From a virus, in the IMG/VR virus record IMGVR_UViG_3300025890_000091, positions 1 to 29,791 of that record: a stretch of 29,791 nt of DNA, one strand, 5' to 3'. Below are positions 16,022 to 29,158 of the stretch, in pieces (position 1 is the first letter of the stretch; each line of letters opens with the position of its first letter). A model generated the notes under the pieces. It had not been told where the DNA came from. It was given only the letters and a program-made list of their open reading frames with translations, and did no database searches. Made by a program: the position numbers and the translations under genes.

Positions 16022-16801
16022 ATGCCTTTCAATATATCAAATTTCAAGTCTGCATTCGATCGCCACGGTGGTCCGGCAAAGGCATCTCTATTCGAGCTTA
16101 GAATATCTCATATACCTAAAAAGAATACATCACAAATTGGTGCTAGAGATTTTTCATTCTTTTGTAAAAGTGCTACAGTTCCTGGCCTTTCGATCTCAAC
16201 AGCGGAAGATATAAAGGTAGCTCAATTAAAGAAAGCATTTCCTACGACGTTGAATAAAGAACCTTTGAATACAATCTTCATGGTCGATTCAAATCACGAA
16301 ATACTCACCTTCTTTGTTCAGTGGATGCAAACTGTAGTCAATTTTGGTACCTCCGGCGGAATGTACTCAGACATTGACGACCAATTACCGTTTGAGGTTG
16401 GTTATAAGAGTGACTATTCAATGGACATTACTGTTCGTCATTATACAACAGATTCCTTGGAGTTCAAATTCCAAGAAACAAAATTTATTAACGCCTATCC
16501 AGTCAGCATGGGCGATTTAGAATTATCGTGGGATGACAATGATTCTTTTCTTACCCTTCCAATTTCCTTTGAGTATGATCGTTTTCAATTATCAAATGAA
16601 ATAGGTGGCTCGAATACAAGCAGATTAGGACGTGGTTCAGGTCTCTTGGAAACCATAGGAGCAATTGCAGGATTTGCTGATGTCGTGAGGCAAACAGTAA
16701 ATCAGGGTAGCGGTATAACATCAATTCAGGATGCTGTCAATAGATTGACAAGAGTCCGAAATTCTTTTGATAATATTAGCGACGTCTTCGGAGGCGGCTA
16801 A
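16022..16801 (+). CDS. Tail-tube-fold protein, probably baseplate tube initiator gp54
   Basis: 259 residues. The pattern FSFFCKSATVPGLSIST near residue 45 and KFINAYPVSMGDLELSWDDN near 160 are those of the gp19/gp54 tube fold. The extra C-terminal 60 residues (after SRLGRGSG) form a helical tail, which T4 gp54 also has and gp19 (163 residues) lacks. The neighbours gp26, gp51-like and gp29 are hub and tape-measure genes, where a tube initiator fits well. The major tube protein gp19 would then lie outside this window. gp19 itself remains possible. Confidence 0.65.
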   Translation: MPFNISNFKSAFDRHGGPAKASLFELRISHIPKKNTSQIGARDFSFFCKSATVPGLSISTAEDIKVAQLKKAFPTTLNKEPLNTIFMVDSNHEILTFFVQWMQTVVNFGTSGGMYSDIDDQLPFEVGYKSDYSMDITVRHYTTDSLEFKFQETKFINAYPVSMGDLELSWDDNDSFLTLPISFEYDRFQLSNEIGGSNTSRLGRGSGLLETIGAIAGFADVVRQTVNQGSGITSIQDAVNRLTRVRNSFDNISDVFGGG

Positions 16802-16817
16802 CATATAGGAGTACATC

Positions 16818-17519
16818 ATGGCTTTACCAAAAATTGACCTACCGATGATGGAGATGGTTCTACCATCATCAGGCGAAAAAATCAAATACAGACCTTTCAC
16901 AGTAAAAGAAGAAAAAATCTTATTGGTTGCTCAGGAATCGCAAGATCCAGAACAAGAAATACTAGCAGCCAAACAAGTGGTGAATAATTGTCTCATAGAC
17001 AAAGACATCAATGAATTGGCTATGTTTGATTTGGAGTTTGTCTTATTGACAATGAGATCCAAATCGATTGACAACAAGCTAGAATTTAGAATAACTGATC
17101 CAGATACAAGTGAATCTGTAGAGGTTGAATTAAATCTAGATGAAATGAAATTAGTAGAAGACGCTAATCACACAAATCGAATCAAGGTCAACGACGAATA
17201 TTTCATAATACTTAAATATCCAAAAATCGATGAGTTCATTAAGATTGTATCATATGAACCTACAGATCCTTTGGTAAATTATTTCATTATGGTTTCTTGT
17301 CTCGATAAGCTTGTTTCAGAAGATGAGAGTCACGATTTTGGAGAGTACAGCGAAGAAGAAATCGATGATTTTATGAATAATATGACAGGAAATGTTCTCA
17401 AAGGAATTCAAACCTTTTTTGAGACCATGCCCAAACTACGACACGAATTTAATTATACGAACAGTGCGGGTTCAGAGAAAACATTTGTCATTGAGGGTAT
17501 GCGCACTTTTTTTATCTAA
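16818..17519 (+). CDS. gp26: Baseplate hub/tail assembly chaperone gp26
   Basis: 233 residues (T4 gp26, 208). The opening LPSSGEKIKYRPFTVKEEKI and the centre NELAMFDLEFVLLTMRSKSI are the signature of the T4 baseplate chaperone family; the last third is acidic. AGGAG stands nine bases before the ATG. It ends with ACT TTT TTT ATC TAA; the seven T residues at 17507-17513 are in the correct phase for a -1 slip, and the downstream small frame is in -1. It is thus both a stand-alone chaperone and, by frameshift, possibly the first 232 residues of a 290-residue fusion, as with G/GT of lambda before the tape measure. Confidence 0.85.
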   Translation: MALPKIDLPMMEMVLPSSGEKIKYRPFTVKEEKILLVAQESQDPEQEILAAKQVVNNCLIDKDINELAMFDLEFVLLTMRSKSIDNKLEFRITDPDTSESVEVELNLDEMKLVEDANHTNRIKVNDEYFIILKYPKIDEFIKIVSYEPTDPLVNYFIMVSCLDKLVSEDESHDFGEYSEEEIDDFMNNMTGNVLKGIQTFFETMPKLRHEFNYTNSAGSEKTFVIEGMRTFFI

Positions 17520-17578
17520 TGTTGTGTCACACTAATCTGGCAAATTATTATCAAACTATATTTGCCTTGGCGCAACAT
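17507..17578 (+). promoter_or_regulatory. Candidate -1 programmed ribosomal frameshift signal (gp26 to gp51-like frame)
   Basis: Slippery heptamer T TTT TTT at 17507-17513 in the gp26 reading phase, a 5-base spacer (17514-17518), then a stem of 17519-17529 with 17568-17578 (11 pairs, two of them G-U). Inside the loop is a second helix, 17539-17545 with 17560-17566 (7 pairs, 14-base loop). The gp26 stop is only four bases after the heptamer, and the next frame is in -1. The ATG of that frame lies at the 5' foot of the stem and has no good Shine-Dalgarno. Confidence 0.65.
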
Positions 17579-17689
17579 CATAAATACTCTATAACTGAGG
17601 TAGAAAGTTTGATACCATACGAGAGAGATCTCTACTTTGCAATGCTAGTAAGCTGGTTAGAAGAACAGAAAGAAAAGCAGAAAAAATAA
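17519..17689 (+). CDS. Small gp51-like hub assembly protein / tail-chaperone extension frame
   Basis: 56 residues counted from ATG 17519. The motif LIPYERDLYFAMLVSWLEE near residues 31-49 resembles the short C-terminal extension of tail assembly chaperones (the T part of GT) and the product labelled gp51 in marine T4-like phages; the tail is Lys/Gln-rich. Its start overlaps the gp26 stop (TAATG), and its own stop is followed directly by the tape-measure ATG. Expression is either by coupled restart or by -1 frameshift from gp26, which would add residues Tyr-Leu before this Met. T4 gp51 is much longer (249), so equivalence is tentative. Confidence 0.65.
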   Translation: MLCHTNLANYYQTIFALAQHHKYSITEVESLIPYERDLYFAMLVSWLEEQKEKQKK

Positions 17690-19489
17690 ATGGCAGAAAA
17701 TACATTACCAGGTCGAGGACGCGGTCCTAGTTTAAAGGAACAACGGTCTGAGGCATCCGACGACTCTAGGGCCTCAACACAGACGCAGGAAATTGTTGAT
17801 CGTTTAAAGAAGGATGGGGAGCTTCTTAGGAATAAGGGCAAGAATTCTATTCGATCAGTTAATATAGAATTATCTAAATTTAGTGATGCTTTTAATGCAA
17901 TTTCTGGTAGCATTCAAAATCAAAGTGGAATCTTGGCTGGCATGCAGGCAACTGCAGAAGATCAAGCTGAAATCGCACAGAAGAAGTCCGACTTCGACGA
18001 ATTGAGCGAAGGTAAGGAATCTGATACCGCAAGAGAAATCAGGCTGCTACGAGAAAAAGCAGAGCTATTCAATGCCAAGGCAGATTTAAATGATGCGAAA
18101 AAACGCGACGGTGGAGGACTAGGTGATATATTAGGTAAACTTGCAAGTGGAGGTTTCTTAAAGACTCTGGGCTTACTTGCTGGAGGTGGCTTCATTGCAT
18201 ATAATCTAGCAAAGGGATTCATTAATAAGATGACCGATGGTGGGTTTGATACATTTGTCAAATCTGTGCAAGATTTTGATTGGACAGGTTTGGGTACCAC
18301 CATCGTTGAGTTTATGGGCAGCGCGAAGGATGGTTTGGCGAATATGATTACCTTCTTCGACGATCCACTCAAGATTCTTGCAGGTCTCACTGGAGCAGCA
18401 GTCGGTGCAAAACTCCTCACATCAATCGGAACCTCAATTGCAGCAAAAGCAATTGGCCAATTAGTGATGGGATCACCCGGAGCAATGTCTGGTGCTGGTG
18501 GTAAGGGCATGGGAAAGGCAATGATGGGTGCTCTTGGTGCCGCCGGTCTGATATACGCACAAGATATTGCTGATTTTATTGTCGGGGAGGCAAAAAATTC
18601 TGATGTAACAAAAATAGATATCAAAAATGCAGCTACTACAGTAGGTATATCAGTAGCAAGTGGTGCAACAATTGGAGCTATGTTTGGCCCCAAAGGCATG
18701 TTGGCCGGTGCTATTTTAGGTGGTGCTTACGGTCTTGGTCTAGGACTTGTGGATTATGTAAAAGAAAATCTCTTGGATATGGGGAAAACGTCAAAGGAAG
18801 GCAAACAGGCAATCCAGAAACTAAGAGCTCGAAAAGAGATGGTCGAAGCGATGGGTCAAGAGAAGTTTGATGCATGGGCTGCCGGCAACGAAGACATGAA
18901 TGAAGAGTTGCTCTTACAACAAGCTTTTGAAGCTCAAGAAGATATAAGAGCAAAATTAGAAGAAGCAAAGAAAAAGAAGGCCAACGTTAAGACTACAGAT
19001 CTCGTCAGTATCAACAGGTATACGGGGGAAAGAACATACAGAGCGCGCAATCAAGACTCTATATTAAGAGACCTCGAACGAGCCGACGAAGAAATACAGA
19101 GATACCAAGATCAATTAATGACATTGGATTCTGCATTGCAAACAACAGGATATGATCCGACGGCGCTAATCCCGAAAGTTGAAGCGATCCCGTTTGATCA
19201 AAGTGGTCCTGAAATGGCCCCGGGCAAAATCGTTGAAACCGAAGAGGAAATGTCACCTGAGCTTAAAGCATATTTGGACCGAAATGACATATCAAAACCC
19301 ATTGCCGGTCCTTCTCCCATCGCGATGGCTCCAATAATGGCTCCAATATCAATTAATTATGTGTCTGGTGCACCAGTAAATAATGTACTGAATCAAAATG
19401 TACAAGGTGGATCAAGCGTCGCCTCTATGACATCTATGAGTTTAGGTGGTGGTAGTGGTGGACAAGATGTATTTGGAGCTGTAAGTTAA
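17690..19489 (+). CDS. gp29: Tail tape measure protein gp29
   Basis: 599 residues (T4 gp29, 590). The N-terminal 130 residues are charged and helical with coiled-coil character. Hydrophobic Gly/Ala-rich segments at about 135-172, 222-255 and 308-352 (for example ASGATIGAMFGPKGMLAG) are those of tape measure proteins that enter the host membrane. Residues 360-470 are again charged helices, and the C-terminus is Ser/Gly/Val-rich. It follows the tail chaperone pair directly, the canonical order in tailed phages. It sets tail length and forms part of the DNA channel. No peptidase or lysozyme insertion is visible. Confidence 0.85.
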   Translation: MAENTLPGRGRGPSLKEQRSEASDDSRASTQTQEIVDRLKKDGELLRNKGKNSIRSVNIELSKFSDAFNAISGSIQNQSGILAGMQATAEDQAEIAQKKSDFDELSEGKESDTAREIRLLREKAELFNAKADLNDAKKRDGGGLGDILGKLASGGFLKTLGLLAGGGFIAYNLAKGFINKMTDGGFDTFVKSVQDFDWTGLGTTIVEFMGSAKDGLANMITFFDDPLKILAGLTGAAVGAKLLTSIGTSIAAKAIGQLVMGSPGAMSGAGGKGMGKAMMGALGAAGLIYAQDIADFIVGEAKNSDVTKIDIKNAATTVGISVASGATIGAMFGPKGMLAGAILGGAYGLGLGLVDYVKENLLDMGKTSKEGKQAIQKLRARKEMVEAMGQEKFDAWAAGNEDMNEELLLQQAFEAQEDIRAKLEEAKKKKANVKTTDLVSINRYTGERTYRARNQDSILRDLERADEEIQRYQDQLMTLDSALQTTGYDPTALIPKVEAIPFDQSGPEMAPGKIVETEEEMSPELKAYLDRNDISKPIAGPSPIAMAPIMAPISINYVSGAPVNNVLNQNVQGGSSVASMTSMSLGGGSGGQDVFGAVS

Positions 19490-19517: not shown

Positions 19518-19648
19518 CGTTTTAGTTCTTCTCTTTTTCTGAAAGATTCACCAAGATTATGGTCGTACATTTCGATGAAATTCATCCATTTCAGACCTTC
19601 TTTGAAATCTACCCAGAGTTGAGAAAAGAAATCACGCAACCTCTGCAT
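19502..19648 (-). CDS. Small highly charged protein, unknown function
   Basis: 48 residues from ATG 19648: the N-terminal half is aromatic-rich (DFFSQLWVDFKEGLKWMNF) and the C-terminal half charged (SFRKREELKRKESE). GAGG stands about eight bases upstream, inside the peroxiredoxin gene, whose 3' end it overlaps by 17 bases in another frame. The stop sits in the loop of the terminator at 19493-19517. It explains the otherwise empty interval between peroxiredoxin and the terminator. No family recognised; reality rests on start signal, length and fit. Confidence 0.5.
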   Translation of the reverse strand: MQRLRDFFSQLWVDFKEGLKWMNFIEMYDHNLGESFRKREELKRKESE

Positions 19649-20213
19649 CTTTAACCTCAGACCTAACCGCAAAGCGATCGGCTACTTCTTCTAGATAAGC
19701 GATTACAGATTCAGGTGATGTTACACTATAAGGATCATCTTCACAAAGATCTATCTTGCCAGGTTCTTCGAACCCTTGTTCGATAACACTATCGGTAACT
19801 ACCATAGCATATCGCCAAGATCGGTGACCAAAGCCAAGATTATCTTTATCTACCAACATGCCAAGTGCTTTCGTAAACTTACCAGAACCATCGGGAATCA
19901 TCTTGATGTTTTCCACCCCTTGAGCCTTAGCCCAAGCATTCATCACAAATGCATCATTGACTGATACACAATAAACATCATCCACATGAAGAGACTTAAT
20001 GCATTCATAAGCTTCTTCAAAGCCAGGTACTTGGTATGTTGAACACGTAGGTGTGAATGCCCCAGGCAAGCTGAAAACAACCACGCGCTTATTCTCGAAT
20101 AAATCATCAGTGGTTTTGTCTTCCCAACGATAGGGATTGTCACCGCCGATTGATTCATCGCGAACTCGTGTTTTAAAGACTACCTGAGGTAGTAGTCGTC
20201 CTTGTAGTTCCAT
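19632..20213 (-). CDS. Peroxiredoxin (Prx5/AhpE-type redoxin)
   Basis: 193 residues. PGAFTPTCSTYQVPGFEE holds the active-site Thr54 and peroxidatic Cys57 of the Prx5 subfamily, followed by VYCVSVNDAFVMNAWAKAQG (residues 80-99) and the conserved Arg in GHRSWRYAMVV (Arg131 or Arg134). Other Cys residues at 71, 82 and 157 could act as resolving partners. The enzyme reduces H2O2 or alkyl peroxides with glutaredoxin or thioredoxin. AGGAG precedes the start. It is downstream of Hsp20, with 15 bases between, and probably shares its late promoter. This is an auxiliary metabolic gene of host origin; a role against oxidative damage during lysis is inferred. Confidence 0.92.
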   Translation of the reverse strand: MELQGRLLPQVVFKTRVRDESIGGDNPYRWEDKTTDDLFENKRVVVFSLPGAFTPTCSTYQVPGFEEAYECIKSLHVDDVYCVSVNDAFVMNAWAKAQGVENIKMIPDGSGKFTKALGMLVDKDNLGFGHRSWRYAMVVTDSVIEQGFEEPGKIDLCEDDPYSVTSPESVIAYLEEVADRFAVRSEVKDAEVA

Positions 20214-20228
20214 TATATAGTTCTCCTA

Positions 20229-20678
20229 TCAATCGACCAAAAGTTCTCTTGTGGAACCGATGGCTATTTTCTTGGGTCTTTTCTCTTCTGGAATAATTCG
20301 TTCCAATTGAATAGTTAAAAGACCATTGACATACTCGGCTCCTTGCACTTCAATATCATCAGCTAGAGTGAATGAACGAGTAAATTTCTTTCTTGAAATA
20401 CCGCGATGAAGATATTCGCCAGTAACATTATCATCGCTAGATTCATCCCACGCGGATTTGACAGTCAAGGTATTTTCTTTGTGCTCGATGTCAATATCTT
20501 CTTGGTTGAGTCCGGCGAGAGCAATGTCGATGTAGAACTTCTCGTCATCCCTGCGGATATTGTATGGGGGGAATCCTTGGTTATTTGGATGCTGGTGCGA
20601 CTGCTCCAACAACCGATCGAACATGCGATCGAAACCAACGGAATAGGGGGTTAACGTATTAAGGTTAAATCGTGTCAT
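20229..20678 (-). CDS. hsp20: Small heat shock protein Hsp20 (IbpA-type)
   Basis: 149 residues from ATG 20678, chosen over an in-frame ATG nine codons upstream because AAAGGAGA lies eight bases before it. Residues 1-40 (TLTPYSVGFDRMFDRLLEQ) are the IbpA/B-like arm. The alpha-crystallin domain runs about 40-130 with YIDIALAGLNQEDIDIEHKE and the EYLHRGISRKKFTRSFTLAD segment, ending in GLLTIQLERIIPEEKRPKKI with the I-x-I/V-type tail. ATP-independent chaperone that keeps denatured proteins soluble; Hsp20 is common in marine T4-like phages and may help scaffold or tail folding. A late promoter and a leader with two hairpins lie upstream. Confidence 0.93.
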   Translation of the reverse strand: MTRFNLNTLTPYSVGFDRMFDRLLEQSHQHPNNQGFPPYNIRRDDEKFYIDIALAGLNQEDIDIEHKENTLTVKSAWDESSDDNVTGEYLHRGISRKKFTRSFTLADDIEVQGAEYVNGLLTIQLERIIPEEKRPKKIAIGSTRELLVD

Positions 20679-20715
20679 TGTGCTATCTCCTTTTAAGCAA
20701 GACATTTAGTTTTGT

Positions 20716-25498: not shown

Positions 25499-25527
25499 AT
25501 TATAACAGACTTTGGGTCACTTGTCAA
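25499..25527 (-). promoter_or_regulatory. Consensus sigma70 promoter before the 67-residue gene
   Basis: TTGACA (25527-25522), 17-base spacer, TATAAT (25504-25499) on the minus strand. It would drive the 67-residue gene, the glycosyltransferase and gp45. Confidence 0.85.
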
Positions 25528-26374
25528 CCCCTCTCATCGTTTTGTTAATATTAACTGCACTTTCTAGTAAATTAAGGACATAATCGTCACCCAATTCTTT
25601 AGAATAGTTCACAAAGGCAGAAGTGTCCTTTGGAAAGCAGTTACCTCCGAAGCCTCGTTGTCCGTCTGGGCCTGGCACTTTCATATGGCTGGATCCCATA
25701 CGAGGCTCTTGTGCCAGAATATCGGTAAAGGTATTCCAAGAATCGGTCGTGCCAGAATTCTCAAATACATTATTAATCTCATTGAAGAATGTTACTTTCA
25801 TAGCAAGAAAGGAATTAATAGTATATTTCAACATACTGGCTGTGACTGCATCTACCTTATACGTTGCACATAATCGAACGTTACTGTAATTATTGTATGC
25901 GCGTTCTACGACTGTGCAATCTTCGAACTTTCCACCAAGAATTTGGAAGGGCGGATTTACGAAATCATTTCTGGCGTTAGCCTCTGTCAAGAACTCTGGG
26001 TTATAGACAATCTTAAGGCCTTGGAATTTAGCCAACATCGCCTTGATATTACCAGGCTGTACCGTACTCTTTAACACGACAATACCTTTATATCGGAGTC
26101 GAGCTAATTCAGCAAATACAGATTCGATTATCGAATTATCTTGATTACCATCAGCGTCGGGTGGTGTTGGAACGCAGACAAATGTGAGTTGTGGATTGAA
26201 CATGATCAAATCATCATAGTCGAACTGGTCGAGTCTAGGATCGATGATCAGTTGTTTTGTGTAGTCGTTCTCGAAGCCAAAAGACACGGAACTCCCAACG
26301 AAACCGTACCCGATGACCCCGATTCTTAATGCGTTAGTCATGATGTTTGCTTGCTCTCTTGTTAATGCGGTCAT
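25517..26374 (-). CDS. Short nucleotide-sugar (UDP-glucose/GDP-mannose) dehydrogenase
   Basis: 285 residues from ATG 26374, chosen because GGGAGG lies just before it. Rossmann motif IGVIGYGFVG at 18-27, CVPTPPDADG near 67-76, KSTVQPG near 102, catalytic Lys in KYTINSFLAMKVTFFNEI (about 183-200) and the thioester Cys246 in GFGGNCFPKD. The third, C-terminal UDP-binding domain of typical enzymes (about 400 residues) is missing, as the gene stops 39 residues after the Cys motif. It oxidises the C6 hydroxyl of a nucleotide sugar to a uronate. The partner epimerase and glycosyltransferases lie nearby. The exact sugar cannot be told. Confidence 0.88.
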   Translation of the reverse strand: MTALTREQANIMTNALRIGVIGYGFVGSSVSFGFENDYTKQLIIDPRLDQFDYDDLIMFNPQLTFVCVPTPPDADGNQDNSIIESVFAELARLRYKGIVVLKSTVQPGNIKAMLAKFQGLKIVYNPEFLTEANARNDFVNPPFQILGGKFEDCTVVERAYNNYSNVRLCATYKVDAVTASMLKYTINSFLAMKVTFFNEINNVFENSGTTDSWNTFTDILAQEPRMGSSHMKVPGPDGQRGFGGNCFPKDTSAFVNYSKELGDDYVLNLLESAVNINKTMRGVDK

Positions 26375-26404
26375 AGTACCTCCCATAATATTGTATATTT
26401 TTAT

Positions 26405-27022
26405 TTAGTCCAAAAACTCAACACGGTCAATGAATTGTAACCGCATCACGTCAGCCATGATGTCATAGGCACTATCGTGAGCTTTAAAATTACTTTCCCA
26501 ATTACTATCGGGAACCTCAAAGCCATTTTTTCTAGGGAAATTGAGTTTTGCATCGATCCAGGTTCTGGTGTCCCTCAGTTTATAATGAGGAAGGTATTCG
26601 TGAACCGTATTCAATTTGCCGGCAGCTTCGAAGAGTCGCCATAGGATAAGAGGATCAAAAGAATTAGAACGAGACCACCAGCAAGAGATCTTACCATGAG
26701 GTCGGATATATTCTAGGAACTCATCACAGAATTCTCTAACGGTCAAATCAGCCGGAGATGGCTTGATGTTTCTTCTGACTTCTTTGGGTAGGGTCATCCA
26801 CCACTCTAATGTGCTTTCTTCAATGCCGAAGTTATGATCTTCTACCTGATGCTTTACATTGAGTTTGAATTTTTTACATTCACCAACATCGGCGAATGAA
26901 TAGGGGGTATTGGATTGGAATCTGTCCCAGTCGAAAACCAGAGCAGACATATCAACGACAGCACATGAGTTCATGTCAGTGCCCATCGTTTCGAAATCAA
27001 TAATTACGTGTTTTTTAGTCAT
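26405..27022 (-). CDS. dexA: DexA-type 3'-5' exonuclease (DEDDh)
   Basis: 205 residues from ATG 27022; a TTG six codons upstream is the only extension. DEDDh sites: IDFETMGT with Asp9 and Glu11, NSFDPLILWRLF with Asp123, and HDSAYDIMADV with His182 and Asp187. T4 DexA (227 residues) has the same layout and degrades single-stranded DNA from 3' ends. No strong Shine-Dalgarno is visible. An exact late promoter TATAAATA lies 25 bases upstream. Confidence 0.9.
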   Translation of the reverse strand: MTKKHVIIDFETMGTDMNSCAVVDMSALVFDWDRFQSNTPYSFADVGECKKFKLNVKHQVEDHNFGIEESTLEWWMTLPKEVRRNIKPSPADLTVREFCDEFLEYIRPHGKISCWWSRSNSFDPLILWRLFEAAGKLNTVHEYLPHYKLRDTRTWIDAKLNFPRKNGFEVPDSNWESNFKAHDSAYDIMADVMRLQFIDRVEFLD

Positions 27023-27046
27023 AATATAATACCGCGTCAATGAAAC

Positions 27047-27054
27047 TATTTATA
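27047..27054 (-). promoter_or_regulatory. T4-type late promoter before dexA
   Basis: Exact TATAAATA on the minus strand in the short gap between the epimerase and dexA. Confidence 0.65.
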
Positions 27055-27066
27055 TAGCTTCTGTTT

Positions 27067-27939
27067 TTAAGTGGTGGCGAATTCTCGTTTCGTGATATAT
27101 TCTACCAAATCGTGTCTTGGTTCCCACCCAAGTTCCCTTATCTTATCCGTAATAACGGGTGCAGACATACGGTTACCTCTTGCTCCTGGTCCCATTTCGA
27201 AATCAGCATCGAAAAGTATCGCCACATCGATAATAGAATAAGCATCTGGATGTCCTATCCCGTACTCATCGCCATGTCCCTGCTCTCCGATAAGCATCAA
27301 TCCATCGACAATATCATCAACGTGGGTAAAGTTTCTTTCTTGTGTACCAGGTGACGTGATTGTCAACGTCTCGCCCTTGGCTTTCTTCTCAGCAAATTTT
27401 GCAATCAAAGTAGCATATTTGCCCTGTGAGATTTCACCCGGGCCATACACATTGTAAAAATAAGAAATAGCATAGTCCAGACCATACCATTCACCAAATT
27501 TCTTTACGAGTTCTGTATTCTGGGCCTTTGAGAATGCATATGGACTCATTACATAACCTGGAGTCTGATCTGCAAACTTTGTACTAGAACCAGCATACAC
27601 TACCTTTGCTTCCCATTTCAAAGCAAGTTTTAGAATATTGTAGGTTCCATTTGTATTGAACTCATGGACAAGATCGACATCATCGAAGCTCTGTTCCACT
27701 CTAGAATATTCACCCAGATGATATACCAGAGTAGGTCTTATTTTGAAAGTCCATTCTTGCAATTCAGCTGTAGATTTCTGAAAGTACGTGACGTTAGGCA
27801 AATCGACATGACTATCCCAAGAACCAGTGAAATAGTTATCCACTGATATAATTGTATTTTCTGGATTTTCTGCAAGTCTTTTAACCAGGTTACTGCCAAC
27901 AAATCCAGCACCACCTGTGACCAAAATTACATTATGCAT
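27067..27939 (-). CDS. NAD-dependent sugar epimerase/dehydratase (extended SDR)
   Basis: 290 residues from ATG 27939, which puts the Rossmann motif VTGGAGFVG at 7-15, the normal place; an upstream in-frame ATG would add 24 unrelated residues inside the previous gene. Catalytic Ser118/119 in YAGSSTKF and YAFSK (Tyr134, Lys138) are present, as are FYNVYGPGE and RNFTHVDDIVDGL. This is the UDP-glucose 4-epimerase / dTDP-glucose 4,6-dehydratase type; the product sugar cannot be decided. It overlaps the end of the glycosyltransferase gene by eight bases, so the two are co-translated. Confidence 0.9.
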   Translation of the reverse strand: MHNVILVTGGAGFVGSNLVKRLAENPENTIISVDNYFTGSWDSHVDLPNVTYFQKSTAELQEWTFKIRPTLVYHLGEYSRVEQSFDDVDLVHEFNTNGTYNILKLALKWEAKVVYAGSSTKFADQTPGYVMSPYAFSKAQNTELVKKFGEWYGLDYAISYFYNVYGPGEISQGKYATLIAKFAEKKAKGETLTITSPGTQERNFTHVDDIVDGLMLIGEQGHGDEYGIGHPDAYSIIDVAILFDADFEMGPGARGNRMSAPVITDKIRELGWEPRHDLVEYITKREFATT

Positions 27940-29158
27940 GTATCGAAGTTCTCCCTGTTGGAAATACGTCGGCCTCGAACAATGGATCTGGATATTGATC
28001 ATCAGTACCATAGTTACGCATGAGACTCATCCCATAATTATTTGTTTTATTGTGGATAGGAACATTCTTTTTCAAAATCAAAGCATTCTGTCGAGCTGGT
28101 TGGCCAGTATGTTTATTGACAATTGCATTCAGATCAACATGATGGTGAACACGACCATATCGTTCTACCAACGTCACACAGTCTGGATGCATTTCTTTTA
28201 GCATTTTTGACTTATTGTAGGCAGGGTCTTCTCCACTTTCATCCTTCTTATAATCTTTGTAGACCTCAGTGGTATTACCGCCTTTCACAGTTCCGGTTCT
28301 CATTTTGCCTTGATAGAAAGCATAGAACAACATTGTTGTCCAGCCTTCTTTAAGAGCACGGATTGAGATATCCACATCTTCATTAAACTTGCCACGCCAT
28401 CGACCGGGGAAACTATTGTCGATAAGGATACATGACATCAATCTAGTATTTAGTATGAACGGCTGATAGGCACACTGATTAATCACGAAGAATTTATAAT
28501 GAGGGCCTGCAAGAGCAACATTCTCAAATCGATCAGTGAAATCTTCCACGGCTCTAAACATACCCGAGCCCTTTTCGATAACATATCTTTTATTGTTATG
28601 AAGGCGACCGAAATCAACAATGTTGTCGTCCATCATCCAATGCTTGTCAAAGCCCAGGGCGAGGGAGTGTTCCCACATCCAATTACGTGCAGGCCCAGAG
28701 CCCTTCCCATGATTGCTGAATGGCAATTCAAGAACGGTACCAAACTCTGGGTTTGTCACGGCCTGATAGTTGTCGAATTCTTGAGGCTCAACACAGATAT
28801 AATATTGGATGCCCATGCGTTCAAGAGCCTTTGCTGTATATCTGCTCTCCCACCGACCCTTCGACAAAATGTAAATTGGGTATCGCGTATGGGTTTCTTC
28901 ATCGACCCACTTATTAAACAGATTCACTTCACGATCCTTATTAGGATATTGCAGAATGTGAGTCTTGTCTGTCAGCTTGTAATCAAATCGCTCACCAAAA
29001 TGCTCACGATCTTCACGTGTTTTGAAATGAACTCGCAATTGCTTGAATGGGTCTTGTTTGGGTTGGGTAAAAGCAGGAGCGCCGGCTGCATACCATTGTA
29101 TAAATTGGTTTCTCCACTCTTGTTGGAGCTCTTCATGAGTGTGTACGGGTTGAAACAT
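27932..29158 (-). CDS. TET-associated-type glycosyltransferase (TAGT-like)
   Basis: 408 residues. N-terminal domain 40-72 with LRVHFKTREDREHFGERF, ending in ILQYP, a module often joined to ParB-like or DNA-modification proteins in phages. Catalytic part from 93: YPIYILSKGRWESRYTAKAL, CVEPQEFDNY, GSGPARNWMWEHS, HWMMDDNIVDFGR with Asp177-Asp178, and KFNEDVDISIRALKEGW with Glu260-Asp261. This pattern is that of the TET-associated glycosyltransferases proposed by Aravind and colleagues to glycosylate oxidised 5-methylcytosine in phage DNA. GGAGG precedes the start, which overlaps the stop of the gene before it (TAATG). No TET/JBP dioxygenase is in this window, so the acceptor is unknown. Confidence 0.75.
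   Translation of the reverse strand: MFQPVHTHEELQQEWRNQFIQWYAAGAPAFTQPKQDPFKQLRVHFKTREDREHFGERFDYKLTDKTHILQYPNKDREVNLFNKWVDEETHTRYPIYILSKGRWESRYTAKALERMGIQYYICVEPQEFDNYQAVTNPEFGTVLELPFSNHGKGSGPARNWMWEHSLALGFDKHWMMDDNIVDFGRLHNNKRYVIEKGSGMFRAVEDFTDRFENVALAGPHYKFFVINQCAYQPFILNTRLMSCILIDNSFPGRWRGKFNEDVDISIRALKEGWTTMLFYAFYQGKMRTGTVKGGNTTEVYKDYKKDESGEDPAYNKSKMLKEMHPDCVTLVERYGRVHHHVDLNAIVNKHTGQPARQNALILKKNVPIHNKTNNYGMSLMRNYGTDDQYPDPLFEADVFPTGRTSIHA

Follow-up and report, generated by a model that had tools for sequence, protein, structure and literature searches.

From the sequence of a viral DNA stretch of 29,791 nucleotides, which belongs to a marine T4-like phage (IMG/VR record IMGVR_UViG_3300025890_000091, hereafter called the window), and of its relatives, we conclude that gene 26 very probably yields both a short and a long tail assembly chaperone through −1 programmed frameshifting. 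The junction provides a clean case in which one predicted recoding event in most T4 relatives stands against two genes in T4, and it implies that many phage records may wrongly present gene 51 as a gene apart.

Organization of the Gene 26 Junction

The features considered are as follows, in window coordinates:

16022..16801, + strand: tail tube gene, 5′ of gene 26 (phrog_45 tail tube, 7.5e-32)
16818..17519, + strand: gene 26, predicted short tail assembly chaperone (TAC-N), 233 aa, stop included in the coordinates
17493..17497, + strand: Shine–Dalgarno (SD)-like GAGGG, likely stimulator, 9 nt ahead of the heptamer
17507..17513, + strand: putative slippery heptamer T TTT TTT, in −1 phase (X XXY YYZ)
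17513..17689, + strand: −1 frame extension, gp51-like C-terminal domain, 58 codons after the predicted slip plus the stop (17687–17689)
17514–17518: spacer from heptamer to stem, 5 nt
17517..17519, + strand: zero-frame stop TAA of gene 26
17519..17529 (core 17521–17529), + strand: 5′ arm of the putative stimulatory stem (RNAalifold, covariation)
17539..17566, + strand: inner 7-pair helix in the loop (17539–17545 with 17560–17566), present in the window
17568..17578 (core 17568–17576), + strand: 3′ arm of the putative stimulatory stem (RNAalifold, covariation)
17690..19489, + strand: ORF that follows, 599 aa, probably the tape measure gene given its position

The product of gene 26 matches PF12322 T4_baseplate (4.7e-52) and phrog_150 baseplate hub (8e-58), and its 233 codons end in ATG CGC ACT TTT TTT ATC TAA. 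The −1 frame product matches phrog_634 baseplate hub assembly catalyst (2e-22), and the predicted slipped fusion, which contains ...RTFFYLMLCHTN..., counts 290 residues. The preliminary description of this DNA had already placed at the end of gp26 a T TTT TTT run in exact phase for −1 slippage, followed by a 5-base spacer and by a −1 frame that overlaps the stop, begins at the foot of a stem and lacks a good ribosome site, with a slipped product of 290 residues; all of its coordinates for the gp26/gp51 junction hold on recomputation. The junction matched no family in Rfam, and a search of NCBIfam returned no match.

We propose that most ribosomes would pass T TTT TTT in the zero frame and terminate at 17517–17519, releasing the 233-aa gp26 (TAC-N), while a minority would pause between the SD-like contact behind them (17493–17497) and the stem ahead (17519–17578), slip back by one base on U UUU UUU and read on to 17689, thereby producing a 290-aa long form (TAC-NC) that carries the gp51 domain. 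The slip itself and the rate at which it would occur are both predictions from this signal. If they act like lambda G/GT, the two forms would, at a fixed ratio, coat the tape measure protein and recruit the tail tube subunits. T4 and its close kin obtain this pair of proteins from separate genes (26 for the short form and 51 for the long one).

A Slippery Heptamer Conserved in Phase

The preliminary description had suggested looking for the heptamer and its −1 phase in relatives, and both are widely kept: an in-phase T TTT TTT or T TTT TTC closes gp26 in 179 of the 180 scored IMG/VR and phage loci, from cyanophages to Aeh1. These loci combine a first set of 92 (window included) with 88 further ones, the two sets partly overlapping. 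The first set, built from a scan of 80 relatives at 33–67% identity to which divergent cultured phages were added, comprises 92 loci with a readable junction, or 71 distinct junctions. T TTT TTT and T TTT TTC each occur in 46 of these 92 loci, all in the same phase, with a zero-frame stop located 0–6 nt 3′ of the heptamer and an open −1 frame in 92/92, the extension measuring 55–67 residues. Among the carriers are Aeh1, nt-1, Cronobacter LPCS28, Stenotrophomonas Moby, Sinorhizobium phiM7, Agrobacterium Atu_ph04, Methylophilales Melnitz-2, a Nitratidesulfovibrio phage, and an Ackermannviridae record. For the second set, at least 597 IMG/VR relatives were matched, of which 80 were kept, and two small scans were added; heptamer, phase, and open −1 frame agree in 87 of its 88 readable junctions, with T TTT TTC in 68 of the 87.

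The exception among the 88 is a Stenotrophomonas phage record (L189, near 2240–2260) that is one T short of a 99% identical phage (Moby); the missing T, which puts gp26 in the +1 frame, is probably a homopolymer sequencing error. A similar error could be invoked for the junction as a whole, in that gp26 and gp51 might truly be a single ORF broken by sequencing or assembly, or gp51 might be the remnant of a decaying gene, and homopolymers are indeed error-prone, as the one-T difference in L189 recalls. However, genomes sequenced independently of one another show the same two frames, which tells against this explanation; the two-frame layout recurs in all but that one of the 180 loci scored, among them cultured isolates, and conservation extends to the −1 frame protein. 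We regard error or decay as having a practically negligible probability. Two loci outside the 180-locus scoring also depart from the T TTT TTY consensus: Rhizobium phage RHph_I1_18 reads T TTT TTA, and Vibrio phage K445 reads A CTT TTC, a heptamer outside the classical slippery type. K445 (L094, 3640–3680) retains the gp26/−1 gp51-like layout, with a TAATG, and may use another slip or re-initiation.

The heptamer at the end of gp26 is far beyond chance. Across 54 representatives sharing less than 80% identity (284 long ORFs, 82,613 codons), in-phase T TTT TTY occurs 64 times, and 54 of these copies lie at the last six codons of an ORF and correspond to the 54 gp26 genes, which leaves only 10 copies elsewhere; these representatives were selected as heptamer carriers, K445, RHph_I1_18, and L189 being the only ones among all examined loci to be devoid of T TTT TTY. 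The residue ahead of Phe-Phe is variable (S, D, T, N, A), yet in every case its codon has T as the last base and TTT encodes the first Phe; given codon usage, log10 P is about −16 for the T-ending codon and about −14 for the TTT, values that are rough, the sequences being related and hence not independent.

Frames can also be joined by polymerase slippage, as happens in some phages and bacteria, and the run of seven T found in the window and in about one-third of all scored relatives would suit such a scenario, in which RNA polymerase would add a U within the T run and the edited mRNA would encode the fusion. However, most relatives carry six T and then a C (46/92 and 68/87), which is short for polymerase slippage, and this process requires neither a codon phase nor an SD-like element nor a covarying downstream stem. 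We therefore consider transcriptional slippage to be a very improbable source of the long form, and the programmed slip of the ribosome to be the better account of the heptamer.

Flanking Elements: an SD-Like Motif and a Covarying Stem

Upstream of the heptamer stands a conserved element that was absent from the preliminary description. In 38 of the 54 non-redundant junctions, GAGGG or GAAGG occupies positions −14 to −10 relative to the heptamer, and the mean anti-SD duplex amounts to −5.8 kcal/mol at this site and to about 0 elsewhere. Junctions with Arg, Gln, or Lys in place of the Glu usually retain the AGG (CGA GGA in Aeh1, CAA GGC in nt-1), and this retention despite a change of residue supports, without proving it, selection acting on the RNA.

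Downstream, the window folds into a stem of 11 pairs (17519–17529 with 17568–17578) that encloses the inner helix, the whole fold having a minimum free energy of −18.7 kcal/mol (z = −3.6 against dinucleotide shuffles), and RNAalifold finds this stem unprompted in a 17-member clade. In an ungapped alignment of 31 sequences, 89.7% of the stem cells are paired, to be compared with 21–48% in slid controls, and two pairs switch in the compensatory manner that had been looked for, namely 17525/17572 from U-A to A-U and 17522/17575 from C-G to U-A. The stem contains 21 two-sided cells, a count reached in 0 of 500 shuffles, it being understood that these shuffles leave relatedness in and that the slid control removes it. 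The two foot pairs of the 11 are weakly kept in relatives.

With synonymous shuffles, which preserve the −1 protein, the folding energy has a mean z of −2.63 in the clade of the window (16/16 negative), −1.51 in a cyanophage-rich group, and −1.83 in the others, whereas control windows inside gp26 have a mean z of −0.42. The stem is not the same in every lineage: in some cyanophages it is weak, and in some the fold is a short local hairpin. In one close relative (L018, 3190–3273), the long-range stem is lost and a perfect local hairpin (GCCTTAG...CTAAGGC) lies directly 3′ of the stop. As for the second helix of 7 pairs that the preliminary description had drawn inside the loop, it is present in the window along with the 11-pair stem but, unlike the latter, it is not kept in relatives: 55% of its cells are paired there, which is no better than slid controls, and we rejected it as a conserved element for want of comparative support.

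Initiation in the −1 Frame

Another way of expressing the −1 frame would be re-initiation, in which ribosomes ending at the TAA restart on an overlapping ATG to make a separate gp51 of 56 aa. The ATG at 17519 does overlap the gp26 stop (TAATG), the gp51 domain is annotated as a separate gene 51 in relatives, and some ATG lies nearby in 32 of the 71 distinct junctions of the first set. Yet the best anti-SD duplex at ATG 17519 is +1.6 kcal/mol, compared with −6.8 for gp26 and −5.9 for the tail tube gene, which leaves this codon with no ribosome-binding site. The −1 frame of 29 of these 71 distinct junctions is devoid of ATG, GTG, and TTG over the interval that starts at the upstream −1 stop and extends 12 codons beyond the slip, yet it stays open and conserved, and therefore separate initiation cannot serve there; start codons are commoner in the second set, where 8 of 83 junctions have none in the −1 frame. 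A separate gene 51 with its own start and ribosome-binding site is not kept among relatives, and the −1 extension is present in all frameshift-type relatives.

Re-initiation also leaves the invariant in-phase heptamer and its codon bias unexplained, and it sits poorly with T4 gp51, which has a gp26-like domain in one chain. We thus hold it to be an improbable alternative to frameshifting at this locus, with the nuance that, owing to its TAATG, the window could also make a free 56-aa gp51 by coupled re-initiation. Among the relatives retrieved, no joined CDS is annotated at the gp26/gp51 locus. In Aeh1 (L083, 6000–6900), an unannotated gp51 domain is found in the −1 frame behind T TTT TTC.

The Two Predicted Forms and Their Counterparts in T4

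In T4, genes 26 and 51 are divergent neighbors, and their comparison with the predicted fusion is instructive. The profile of T4 gp51 (a protein of 249 aa; Tevenvirinae/RB43 profile) aligns from 4 to 254 of its 256 positions with 14–294 of the 306 positions of the fusion, hence across the junction (E = 1.5e-25), whereas the T4 gp26 profile aligns only with positions 14–242, before the slip (hhalign, E = 1.5e-26). T4 gp26 and gp51 are themselves homologous to each other (4e-12). The short form thus resembles gp26 and the long form, of 290 aa, resembles gp51 over its whole length, from which it follows that T4 encodes both forms in two genes. Neither of these genes has the heptamer, and the window would rely on one gene and a frameshift for both forms.

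As a matter of fact, gene 26 of T4 and KP182 keeps Glu-Phe-Phe, spelled GAG TTC TTT or GAA TTC TTT, and no in-phase heptamer was found in the examined genes of two-gene phages (RB43 gene 26 was not found); judging from these spellings, T4 gene 26 has evidently lost the heptamer. A long branch carries the gp51 clade in a tree of gp26 and of the N-terminal domain of gp51, and this tree gives no order that would date the duplication.

These correspondences bear on earlier annotations, in which cyanophage gp51 was reported at 20% of full length and Aeh1 was reported without gp51 (Sullivan et al. 2010, PMC3037559). Cyanophage gp51 would look truncated, and Aeh1 gp51 would seem to be missing, because their first 200 residues are those of gp26, to which the remainder would be joined by frameshifting. 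T4 gp26 and gp51 are counted among the chaperones of hub assembly, and assembly requires gp51 although the virion does not contain it (PMC3004832). The homology of gp51 to the whole fusion upholds the link, put forward in the preliminary description, between the T4 hub-assembly genes and the tail chaperone frameshifting of lambda- and P2-type phages.

Taken together, GARGG, T TTT TTY, and the covarying stem could form a near-universal route to the long tail chaperone in T4-related phages outside Tevenvirinae/Pseudotevenvirus. Under this joint reading, which we offer tentatively as one that falls a little short of probable, the gene 51 of marine phages would not be a gene of its own, and, within Straboviridae, the T4 lineage would have replaced the frameshift by a pair of paralogous genes, the residues of gene 26 staying the same while the heptamer was cleaned out.

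Proposed Chaperone Role and Known Frameshift Systems

The ORF at 17690..19489 is probably the tape measure gene by its position, and it has no detectable homology to T4 gp29. A long ORF of about 490–940 aa adjoins the stop of the −1 frame in most relatives, and in Rhizobium phage RHph_I1_18, the gene located two ORFs after gp51 is annotated as tail tape measure. The AlphaFold model of gp26 has a pLDDT of 85; a Foldseek search of this model against the PDB placed 2ob9 (HK97 gp13, a solved chaperone) at rank 11 with an insignificant E-value of 2.5, and no significant homologue of solved structure was found for gp26 by sequence or fold. A chaperone role of the lambda G/GT kind is proposed for the two forms.

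The slippery run of lambda is G GGA AAG, whereas that of the window and its relatives is T TTT TTY, and the proteins of the window belong to the T4 gp26/gp51 family (PF12322), with no similarity to G/GT shown. The layout is nonetheless that of lambda G/GT and of the cassettes of long-tailed phages (Xu, Hendrix and Duda 2004): a short ORF adjoins the tail tube gene and bears an in-phase heptamer at its 3′ end, before its stop, a conserved and open −1 extension follows, and a long ORF comes next.

With regard to the signal itself, a comparison can be made with E. coli dnaX, in which an SD-like element about 10 nt upstream, a heptamer, and a stem-loop 5–6 nt downstream make up the signal. The window appears to harbor the same three parts at standard spacings, with the differences that the dnaX heptamer is A AAA AAG and gives a shortened protein, when T TTT TTT would give an extended one.

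Closer in sequence are the tail assembly chaperones (TACs) of Vandenendeviridae and Andersonviridae (GTTTTT; PMC12846349), with a poly-T at the end of TAC-N and a −1 extension leading to the tape measure gene; these are other phage families, and the relevant passages of that paper describe neither a stem nor an SD-like element.

The core idea of a chaperone frameshift in T4-like phages is itself already published, insofar as citing papers credit Vladimirov, Gautam and Davidson (Virology 2022) with the identification of the tail assembly chaperones of T4-like phages (PMC10885494, PMC12846349); the frameshift signal found here is a new instance of that kind. In its citation of that work, the PRFect paper speaks of T4-like phages with one short gene and one fused long gene, without frameshift (PMC10885494), and the Adele paper, where it cites it, of T4-like phages whose TAC-N genes bear poly-T slippery signals (PMC12846349). 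The preliminary description had not mentioned this literature, and its statement that gp26 and gp51 are regarded as separate proteins in T4-like phages agrees with annotations but not with what has been written on the chaperones. Parts of the near-universal, three-part signal considered above may go beyond Vladimirov et al. 2022.

Other Features of the Window

Beside the baseplate genes, an incomplete ORF at 1–1944 matches a subtilase (Peptidase_S8). At 19632–20705, a peroxiredoxin-like gene (Redoxin, 2e-25) lies beside an Hsp20 small heat shock gene (2e-17), both adjoining structural genes. Finally, a sugar-related cluster at 25517–29158 encodes a UDP-glucose/GDP-mannose dehydrogenase, an NAD-dependent epimerase, and a TET-associated glycosyltransferase, and may point to glycosylated hypermodified DNA.
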